64,000 nt of DNA from Teredinibacter franksiae. GTDB lineage: Bacteria; Pseudomonadota; Gammaproteobacteria; Pseudomonadales; Cellvibrionaceae. Of the stretch, positions 3,371-12,661 are shown piece after piece (position 1 is the stretch's first letter; each line of letters begins with the position of its first letter). The stretch is taken from contig NZ_JACJUV010000001.1 in the NCBI RefSeq assembly GCF_014218805.1, positions 930,001 through 994,000 on the forward strand. Direction: 5' to 3'. The translations under genes were made by a program, and so were the position numbers. The notes beneath the pieces were generated by a model. The model saw only the letters and a list, made by a program, of their open reading frames with translations. It did no database searches and was not told the origin of the DNA.

Positions 3371-3950
3371 GAGAGTTACCGTCCTCCCTCACCGCCATAT
3401 ACAAAAAAACCCAGCACTAGGCTGGGTTTTGGATAACCTACTGTCATCGTATTTGGGCGGGATTGTCTCAGGCACATCCATGTGCCCAACCCTTCGGGCG
3501 CCTTCGGCGGACCAAAATGCTCCAAGCATTTAGTCGAACCACGAGAGTTCTCACCCTCCCTCACCGCCATATACAAAAAACCCAGCACTAGGCTGGGTTT
3601 TGGATAACCTACTGTCATCGTATTTGGGCGGGATTGTCTCAGGCACTTCCATGTGCCCGCCCCTTCGGGCGCCTTCGGCGGACCAAAATGCTCCAAGCAT
3701 TTAGTCGAACCACGAGAGTTCTCACCCTCCCTCACCGCCATATACAAAAAACCCAGCACTAGGCTGCGTTTTGGATAACCTACTGTCATCGTATTTGGGC
3801 GGGATTGTCTCAGGCACATCCATGTGCCCGCCCCTTCGGGCGCCTTCGGCGGACCAAAATGCTCCAAGCATTTAGTCGAACCACGAGAGTTCTCACCCTC
3901 CCTCACCGCCATATACAAAAAACCCAGCACTAGGCTGGGTTTTTTGTATA
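3371..3950 (-). repeat. 171/172-bp tandem repeat downstream of tRNA-Ser, with GGA hairpins
   Basis: Three nearly identical units begin at 3371, 3543 and 3714 (periods 172 and 171 bp), and a truncated fourth runs from 3885 into the end of tRNA-Ser. Each unit contains, read on the minus strand: an inverted copy of the last bases of the tRNA (GGCGGTGAGGGAGGG), a stem AAATGC/GCATTT with loop TTGGA (copies 3515-3531, 3686-3702, 3857-3873), a stem GGCAC/GTGCC with loop ATGGAT or ATGGAA (copies 3471-3486, 3642-3657, 3813-3828), and a terminator-like hairpin. Because the period of two units is a multiple of three, an open frame runs through the array, but its peptide is a by-product of the repeat. 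The unit may be a mobile or duplicated RNA element rather than a gene. Confidence 0.85.
3915..3946. terminator. bidirectional Rho-independent terminator after tRNA-Ser
   Basis: Stem AACCCAGC/GCTGGGTT (3921-3928 and 3934-3941) is flanked by an A-run and a T-run, so it can act on both strands; on the minus strand it lies 10 nt past the tRNA-Ser CCA end. Copies of the hairpin recur in each repeat unit near 3409, 3580 and 3753. Confidence 0.8.
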
Positions 3951-4038
3951 TGGCGGTGAGGGAGGGATTCGAACCCTCGGTGCCTTACGACACACACACT
4001 TTCCAGGCGTGCTCCTTCGACCACTCGGACACCTCACC
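3951..4038 (-). tRNA. tRNA-Ser (anticodon GGA)
   Basis: The minus strand folds as a class II tRNA: acceptor stem GGTGAGG/CCTCACC, discriminator G and encoded CCA, T-loop GGTTCGAATCC, anticodon loop CTGGAAA giving anticodon GGA, and a long variable arm. The length of 88 nt suits tRNA-Ser. The last 15 or so bases of the gene are found again, inverted, in the neighbouring tandem repeat. Confidence 0.95.
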
Positions 4039-11353: not shown

Positions 11354-11770
11354 GTGGAAAATACCGTTTCAGAATACCAAAAGTTTCATCAGCAACTGGT
11401 AGTTAACCTGCTGACACAGATTCGTCAGCTATTACCCTTTACCCGCACCGATGACCATGAACCAAGTGAGCAAGATACGCAATTTATAGAATATTTCGAC
11501 AAGCTGAGCAGCGACCTCAATGCCAGCGAAGAGGGCTACCCTCTGGGCCAATGGATTATAACCGCGATTGTTGCCCGCTACCCCCACATTACGCCTCTGG
11601 TCGCTCGCGATCTATTCTGGTTTTTCGGTGGTGATTGCCTGCACTATTTAGGCGACGAAGAAATTACAAAATTTCAAAAGCTAGACGAAAGCTTTCATAC
11701 CCAAGACTCGGAAACTGAAACCTTTGTCCCCTATGAAGAAATGCGCGAGCAGATATTTAACCTGCAATAG
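11354..11770 (+). CDS. conserved hypothetical protein, 138 aa
   Basis: The frame starts at GTG 11354 and encodes a small, acidic, soluble protein with no signal peptide or membrane helix. It contains a recognisable block, WIITAIVARYPHITPLVARD, followed by LFWFFGGDCLHYLGDEE, of the type seen in a conserved gammaproteobacterial family often found beside this ABC exporter; I know no function for it. The start is uncertain because no clear ribosome site is visible. Confidence 0.75.
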   Translation: MENTVSEYQKFHQQLVVNLLTQIRQLLPFTRTDDHEPSEQDTQFIEYFDKLSSDLNASEEGYPLGQWIITAIVARYPHITPLVARDLFWFFGGDCLHYLGDEEITKFQKLDESFHTQDSETETFVPYEEMREQIFNLQ

Positions 11771-11798
11771 CGTAAACCCTTGACGCCCCCCAACGCCA

Positions 11799-11822
11799 GC
11801 CTCTCCAGAGGCCTTTAAGGCC
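11799..11822. other. two short palindromes after the hypothetical gene
   Basis: GCCTCTCCAGAGGC (11799-11812) and GGCCTTTAAGGCC (11810-11822) are adjacent palindromes just past the stop codon. They could end transcription, but no T-run follows. Confidence 0.3.
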
Positions 11823-11879
11823 AAAAAGGCGCCATATCAGTACCACGCTTATACTGCGGTCTCAGTCGCCACTGCTCTT

Positions 11880-12394
11880 GTGCTCCGCGGCATACGACCG
11901 CCATGGCACCCAAAGCACTCACTTCGTTCGCGGGGCGAGCTCATGGCGGAAGTGCAGAAAATACAGGACGATGACAGGGATGTAATCGTTAGAACGACTC
12001 AGGAGACAAAGTCGAGCAATTTCCTGTCCTACATCCTGTGGCCGCCGTTCCCGCGCATGACGTGCACGGACGCACTAATGCAGCGATTGCATGGATGCAA
12101 TGGAGCTGCCCCTGTGCTCCACGGCATACGACCGCCATGGATGGCGGAAGTGCAGAAAATGCAGGAGCAATTTTCTGTCCTACATCCTGTGGCCGCCGTT
12201 CCCGCACATGACGTGCACGGACGCACTAATGCAGCGATTGCATGGATGCAATGGAGCTGCCCCTGTGCTCCACGGCATACGACCGCCATGGATGGCGGAA
12301 GTGCAGAAAATGCAGGAGCAATTTTCTGTCCTACATCCTGTGGCCGCCGTTCCCGCACATCCCTGTGCTCCACGGCATACCTACATCCTGTAGG
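11880..12394 (+). ncRNA. tandem 151-bp repeat with serial GGA-loop hairpins; candidate regulatory RNA
   Basis: A degenerate first copy (about 11880-12110) is followed by two near-identical copies with a period of 151 bp (CTGTGCTCC at 12112 and 12263) and a deleted remnant at 12363. Read on the plus strand, 11941-12330 holds 16 GGA triplets, most in predicted loops: GTGC/GCAC with loop ACGGAC (12062-12075, 12213-12226), ATTGC/GCAAT with loop ATGGAT (12086-12101, 12237-12252) inside an outer GCAGC/GCTGC stem, CCGCC/GGCGG with loop ATGGAT (12132-12147, 12283-12298), and a longer stem with loop AGGA (12153-12177, 12304-12328). The first copy adds ACAGGGATGT (in 11969-11988) and a CAGGAGACAA loop (11995-12014). 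The minus strand also has GGA hairpins, such as GCACAGGGATGTGC (12355-12368), so the transcribed strand is not settled. Open frames through it are repeat artefacts. Confidence 0.6.
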
Positions 12395-12428
12395 CAAAAA
12401 AAAAGCGCAACCGTTAGGTTGCGCTTTT
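12393..12428. terminator. Rho-independent terminator of the tRNA-Glu/Gly operon, usable in both directions
   Basis: Stem AAAAGCGCAACC/GGTTGCGCTTTT (12401-12412 and 12417-12428) with loop GTTA. On the minus strand it is followed by nine T residues and ends the tRNA transcript; on the plus strand four T residues follow, and it would close any RNA read through the tandem repeat. Confidence 0.85.
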
Positions 12429-12507
12429 AAAATGCTTCGCTTGATCCAATTGATGCAATCAAAACTAAAGACTTCACAGTCAGCGTACATCTCTGACTAT
12501 TCAAAAC

Positions 12508-12583
<76 letters not shown>

Positions 12584-12585
12584 AG

Positions 12586-12661
12586 TGGCGTCCCCTAGGG
12601 GGTTCGAACCCCTGTTACCGCCGTGAAAGGGCGGTGTCCTAGGCCTCTAGACGAAGGGGAC
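12586..12661 (-). tRNA. tRNA-Glu (anticodon TTC)
   Basis: The minus strand gives a 76-nt cloverleaf: acceptor GTCCCCT/AGGGGAC, anticodon loop CTTTCAC with TTC, T-loop GTTCGAACC, discriminator G and encoded CCA. It is the first tRNA of the pair and has a strong promoter about 50 bp upstream. Confidence 0.95.

Follow-up and report, generated by a model that had tools for sequence, protein, structure and literature searches.

Introduction

What is the tandem array of GGA-loop hairpins that lies directly behind a tRNA operon of Teredinibacter franksiae? The array occupies positions 11880-12394 of a 64,000-nucleotide stretch of the genome, which is referred to throughout as the window. A preliminary description of this DNA proposed two identities for it: an RNA that sequesters CsrA/RsmA in the manner of CsrB, RsmY and RsmZ, or a member of the structured RNA class TwoAYGGAY.

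The array and its surroundings

The core of the array is a 151-bp tandem repeat at 12014-12360, with 2.3 copies and 98% matches according to Tandem Repeats Finder. When read from the sequence, the whole array spans 11880-12394, with degenerate sequence at its left end and a plain unit at its right end, in agreement with the earlier account of two near-perfect 151-bp units with degenerate ends. On one side it is flanked by a gene of 138 aa (11354-11770, + strand), the product of which belongs to no Pfam family at E<=0.001. On the other side is the Rho-independent terminator (12401-12428, - strand) of an operon encoding tRNA-Glu and tRNA-Gly (12508-12661, - strand), and the array begins directly past the T-tract of this terminator. 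The preliminary description had GGA hairpins followed by a terminator. This order holds weakly, as the strong T-tract, with nine T, is on the - strand and precedes the array, whereas on the + strand, where the terminator follows the array, there are only four T.

GGA occurs 16 times on each strand of the 515-nt array. In dinucleotide-shuffled arrays, the mean on the + strand is 7.6 and the maximum is 13. The count of 16 given previously for the + strand is thus correct, but it belongs to 515 nt instead of 390 nt: 12004-12394 contains 12. The motif CANGGANG is present seven times on the + strand and once on the - strand, while shuffled arrays contain a mean of 0.4 and a maximum of 3 for both strands together. 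This places several GGA loops of the CsrA consensus on one strand, a statement about sequence that does not imply a single transcript. In the entire window there is no enrichment of CANGGANG, with 30 observed versus 21-34 in ten shuffles. As RNA, each strand of the array folds more strongly than all 100 shuffles (z of -4.7 for the + strand and -6.0 for the - strand).

The repeat unit and its family

The array is composed of units of approximately 50 nt that follow a common plan: hairpins A and B each have a GGA loop and are separated by a linker (TATG), and hairpin B is surrounded by a GCNGC-type stem. The linker distinguishes subtype T (gTATg), subtype D (tAATg) and subtype V (cTTATg). The uninterrupted unit closest to the terminator is of subtype T and lies at 12342-12397 on the - strand, where it scores 75.6 bits with R1, a covariance model of the unit built from 20 hand-picked examples. 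Its hairpin A (12380-12394, - strand) is CCTACA-GGA-TGTAGG. Its hairpin B (12355-12368, - strand) is GCACAGGGATGTGC, that is, GCACA-GGGA-TGTGC, which matches CANGGANG and is located exactly where a - strand GGA hairpin had been described. The AYGGAY-type hexaloops mentioned in the preliminary description are present as well.

The unit is not confined to this locus. Searching the genome with 12014-12360 returned 22 matches, and R1 found at least 56, making the unit a multicopy palindrome as expected of a REP element; this number is a lower bound because 59 of 1017 candidates were scored. At E<=0.01, matches were found in 52 of 97 genomes, and at E<=0.001 in 89 of 369 gammaproteobacterial genomes, where strict filters were used and no more than 15 candidates were scored per genome (both counts include T. 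franksiae itself). In addition, a scan of named genomes with the pattern ACAGGATGTANGTATGCCG produced 11 loci, including ones in Marinobacterium, Agaribacterium and Teredinibacter waterburyi. One of these (L088) looks like a chance match within a gene. The same cluster of units is present in T. waterburyi (L094) and in a congener (G002; L097). No description of ~50-nt units with two GGA hairpins was found in the openly licensed literature.

The hairpins are real in that their stems covary, as sought by comparing units for compensatory changes. In alignment A1, which consists of the 20 units picked by hand, two-sided changes affect 10 of 16 pairs, and the covariation score of 0.450 compares with 0.158 +/- 0.019 in shuffled alignments, none of 500 reaching it. 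In A2, which contains 79 distinct matches, the score is 0.441 versus 0.140 shuffled, although this alignment was made to the model and leans to it. For module 1b, a second type of element in the array that is explained below, ten hand-picked copies show covariation in 7 of 16 pairs (0.315 versus 0.106 shuffled). The rows of A1 and A3 were chosen by hand. When one best hit was taken from each of 59 genomes with matches, GGA was kept in both loops in every case, with a distance between GGA starts of 25 nt in 36 hits and 26 nt in 23, although a model trained on such loops favors them. One second match (L115) has GGGG in hairpin B.

Covariation also bears on whether the array encodes a repeat protein. 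Open frames of 230 codons (11880-12572, + strand) and 153 codons (12029-12490, - strand) run through it. The stems, however, covary base pair by base pair, and the period of 151 cannot be divided by three, which puts successive units in different reading frames. Coding by either frame is therefore extremely improbable.

Comparison with known RNA classes

The array resembles CsrB, RsmY and RsmZ in its serial GGA hairpins with CANGGANG-type loops. It differs from them in lacking a model or promoter match, in carrying GGA hairpins on both strands and in having many dispersed copies. The covariance models of CsrB and RsmY/RsmZ do not match the region, either at the gathering score or at E values up to 10, and the genome as a whole contains no CsrB, PrrB_RsmZ or TwoAYGGAY match at E<=0.001. 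A CsrB or RsmZ gene was consequently rejected. One congener (G004) has a single CsrB match of 26.5 bits, which is below the cut-off of 71.

Membership of TwoAYGGAY (RF01731), which is listed for gammaproteobacteria in PMC2864571, fared no better. Units of the array and RF01731 share two hairpins with AYGGAY-type loops, and RF01731 matches were found in 5 of 19 genomes searched, three of them over the cut-off. The matches in relatives contain two GGA hairpins, several of which appear by eye to be flanked by long inverted arms. The array has no long outer arms: its units are ~50 nt long, tandem and nested, with the GCNGC-type stem around hairpin B in their place. Since the region fails the covariance-model test, with no RF01731 match even at E values up to 10, and the genome-wide search was equally negative, it is very unlikely that the array belongs to this class.

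At several TwoAYGGAY matches (L055-L064), the long inverted arms vary from copy to copy. Perhaps RF01731 is a repeat element too.

The seat behind terminators

The position of the array past a T-tract is part of a pattern. A unit was considered to be directly behind a terminator when at least five T ended no more than 4 nt away and the stem was -5 kcal/mol or better. By this rule, 17 of the 59 best-per-genome hits are so placed (a T-tract rule gave 11 of 59), as are 12 of 16 loci in the window's genome, these being the distinct ones, with tandem duplicates left out and L008 and L096 counted as one. Two loci, L004 and L005, fail for the sole reason that their T-tracts have four T. When the hits are divided by subtype, 14 of 16 subtype-T units are directly behind a terminator, compared to 2 of 32 for subtype D and 1 of 11 for subtype V, or 3 of 43 for the latter two together. 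The seat behind a terminator is decided by the linker. Of the 11 loci from the pattern scan, eight were read as following a terminator T-tract directly, unlike L087 and L095.

Group IIC introns are known for landing behind terminators in a specific orientation. The units share this orientation-specific seat and differ in being ~50 nt long; there is no Rfam intron at gathering score in the window.

A separate arrangement was seen at L068 (9003-9045), where a two-hairpin unit apparently lies within the loop of the terminator hairpin itself.

A second tandem array is present in the window at 3383-3943 and 3897-3975, with a period of 171 bp and 3.3 copies, and is located directly behind tRNA-Ser. 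A long, perfect inverted repeat runs across the terminator of this tRNA and takes in the tRNA 3' end; with ~33 bases paired when folded, it looks as though the end of the tRNA had been copied back on itself. The 171-bp units repeat the inverted tRNA end, the terminator and a GCACATGGATGTGC-type hairpin. Elsewhere, at L053 (G000:C8, 1067-1276), one of the two csrA genes of the genome precedes tRNA-Ser(GCT). The 3' end of this tRNA is likewise present as an inverted copy across the terminator, and ~60 nt farther on a unit with two GGA hairpins is situated on the opposite strand.

Units inside units

Two further subtype-T units, at 12191-12288 (- strand; R1, 30.7 bits) and 12040-12137 (- strand; R1, 26.2 bits, together with sequence reading), are each interrupted in hairpin B, at its GGA loop. 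In the covariance alignment, the first of these outer units has 52 unaligned nt in this loop. The insert is a 51-nt subtype-D unit in the opposite orientation, one copy at 12210-12260 and the other at 12059-12109 (+ strand; R1 matches at 12209-12264 and 12058-12113, 59.9 bits each). A second element, module 1b, is 50 nt long and consists of a CCGCCATGGATGGCGG hairpin and an AGGA hairpin. At 12130-12179 (+ strand), it lies between the linker and hairpin A of an outer unit, and its second intact copy, recognized from the sequence and from comparison of empty and filled forms, is at 12281-12330 (+ strand). On the left, the degenerate material at 11896-12028 (+ strand) reads as another module 1b that would have been split twice: in its first hairpin by 11906-11942, and in the GGA loop of its second by module 3, a 46-nt element with two GGA hairpins (11969-12014, + strand).

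Further support for insertion into loops comes from arrays in which hairpin B occurs both empty and filled, of which there are eight. The filled form is longer by 51 nt in the window, L002, L004, L006, L008 and L013, by 48 nt in L089, where the sequences flanking the two forms are slightly different, and by 47 nt in L093. For module 1b in the window, one empty and two filled copies differ by 50 nt. L015 and L090 have only filled hairpin B within the locus. Hairpins thus sprout from other hairpins, since units of the same size and plan lie within GGA loops of resident units or next to their hairpins. This does not extend to subtype D in general. Outside arrays, complementary flanks of at least nine pairs were found in 4 of 31 cases against 5.75% in the mismatched-flank control, which was not taken as enrichment, and hairpin loops as the general target of subtype D were accordingly rejected.

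Occupied and empty sites in congeners

Comparison with relatives, as proposed in the preliminary description, found the array missing from all seven congeners examined (G001-G007). Each has the gene for tRNA-Gly (75-76 of 76 bases), followed by a terminator, and the unit model detected nothing within ~1.5 kb on either side of the site (~3.2 kb) in any of the seven. In G004, the gene order was read to match that of the window on both sides. A second locus, behind the terminator of a conserved gene, was compared in G001, G004, G005 and G007. Here, the window's genome carries a run of 4.3 units of 50 bp that are nearly identical. G004 and G005 are empty, G007 has no units behind the terminator, and G001 has a diverged array in the corresponding position. 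Thus, at both the tRNA-Gly site and the second locus, occupied and empty orthologous sites exist, as they do for mobile elements. The array was gained in the lineage of the window's genome.

At the second locus, G007 carries a tandem array of GGA hairpins of unrelated sequence before the terminator (L188).

How the units may be mobilized

Short extragenic palindromes that are clustered, lie 3' of genes and have covarying stems are typical of REP elements of the GTAG/CGTC families, as described in PMC3733652, and the units share these properties. One explanation is that they are REP elements mobilized by a RAYT, a Y1 (HUH) transposase that moves them as folded, single-stranded DNA. The conserved palindromic structure and orientation-specific placement are consistent with this, and so is the distribution within the genus: four genomes with Y1 have 56, 12, 10 and 20 unit matches, while four without it have 2, 1, 0 and 8. 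Separation this complete would occur once in 70 by chance if kinship is ignored. Against this, no GTAG-type tag was seen by eye beside the units when compared with the description in PMC3733652, none of the 29 Y1 loci of the genus has a unit within ~1.5 kb, and G002 has its eight matches without any Y1 match. Relative to the REP families as outlined there, the units have two hairpins each, GGA loops and no nearby Y1 gene, they nest, and one subtype lies exactly behind terminators. Mobilization by a RAYT is unlikely, and a Y1 transposase as neighbor of the unit was rejected.

The possibility that spaced pairs of units form the ends of larger transposons was also rejected; ten such regions were taken and their units located, and no transposase was recognized when the ORFs of three were inspected by eye. 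Plasmid and phage collections contain no unit match at an E value of 1e-5, and no target-site duplication was established at units, where the search was not systematic.

Do the units bind CsrA/RsmA?

The proposal that the units form a CsrA/RsmA sponge states that they are kept because their hairpins bind CsrA, and it may coexist with the repeat-family reading. The transcripts would come either from read-through of the tRNA terminator (- strand) or from the 3' end of the gene of 138 aa (+ strand). A unit has the size of a single dimer site, with its two GGA loops ~22 nt apart. Its loops agree with the CsrA/RsmE consensus A/UCANGGANGU/A, as given in PMC6849547. In PMC4894983, two GGA hexaloops 21 nt apart in the Campylobacter flaA mRNA are discussed as a CsrA-titrating site, close to the optimum of 18 nt, and according to PMC4066749 a single CsrA dimer is able to span sites separated by 10 to 63 nt.

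In addition to the excess of CANGGANG in the array and the constancy of both GGA loops and their spacing, every one of the 59 best-per-genome hits has at least one CANGGANG; 31 have two, and 51 do if the triloop CAGGAYG is counted. The balance of G.U pairs and A.C mismatches on the GGA-bearing strand also fits, as G.U exceeds A.C by 41 to 19 in A2 and by 13 to 4 in A1. However, the units used to train the model had GGA loops, its scoring favors G.U pairs, module 1b has three G.U versus five A.C, and the GGGG of the L115 match departs from the pattern.

The genome has two csrA genes, which is like T. turnerae, for which two are reported in PMC2699552; both genes of T. franksiae lie outside the window, which bears out the earlier statement that no csrA gene is in it. 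Across genomes, csrA was found in 82 of 89 with units and 231 of 280 without (Fisher p 0.028, kinship ignored), and among more complete genomes in 74 of 76 versus 206 of 238 (Fisher p 0.006, kinship ignored). Conversely, csrA was not found in seven of the 89, picked from the csrA list by eye, two of which are 95-98% complete.

A GacA-type box has the form TGTAAG-N6-CTTACA. With up to three mismatches, there are 24 such boxes in the window versus 25 expected, and none between 9292 and 13851. A consensus scan found no sigma-70-type promoter match for the array itself, and the terminator should limit any transcript of the - strand. As subtype D and module 1b face the other strand, no single transcript carries all sites. 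The opposite orientation of the inner units, the terminator ahead of the array and the lack of a promoter match all argue against a gene dedicated to a sponge RNA.

A precedent for a less dedicated role exists in the E. coli tRNA-linked repeats RrA/RrB/RrF, which likewise carry GGA hairpins past the terminator of an operon for stable RNA, are produced by read-through and are bound by CsrA in vitro, according to PMC8144298. These repeats contain 18-19 bp of the upstream tRNA 3' end, whereas the array has no tRNA-Gly 3' end: the last 10 to 18 bases of this tRNA are absent from both strands of 11771-12440. In T. franksiae, agreement of the loops with the CsrA/RsmE consensus CANGGANG makes a CsrA decoy plausible, and putative read-through transcripts might act as weak CsrA/RsmA decoys, an RNA function that is tentatively proposed. 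That the units are retained for CsrA binding is likewise possible and, on balance, doubtful.

Discussion

With its copy number, covarying stems, GGA loops and terminator seat, and with empty sites in congeners and empty and filled copies in one array, the array is probably one locus of a new, REP-like family of dispersed palindromic repeats that nest in each other. A subtype-T unit would settle directly 3' of a terminator T-tract, here that of the tRNA-Glu/tRNA-Gly operon. Subtype D and modules 1b, 1c and 3 would then settle in the GGA loops or beside the hairpins of resident units, and the composite units would multiply in tandem, for which unequal recombination or slippage is the simplest route. 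We infer that an enzyme acting in trans inserted the units as DNA or copied them from RNA, and that the fold of the GGA-bearing strand is probably the one that matters. The role of read-through transcripts as weak CsrA/RsmA decoys would be the least certain step.

A broader and more speculative idea is that the units represent a gammaproteobacteria-wide mobile class of ~50 nt, which lands on terminator and GGA-loop hairpins, nests in CsrA-type loops, and exploits or tunes CsrA/RsmA. Such an element would be a selfish repeat with a single binding site for a CsrA dimer as its conserved body.

Nesting in GGA loops, together with the subtype-specific terminator seat, provides a handle for finding the mobilizing machinery. 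The family may also be relevant to TwoAYGGAY, an unexplained class whose matches in relatives share the two-hairpin plan. If the units do bind CsrA, the repeat family would give a genome dozens of CsrA sites, many of them behind terminators, and models of this global regulator would have to include the load of repeat sites.
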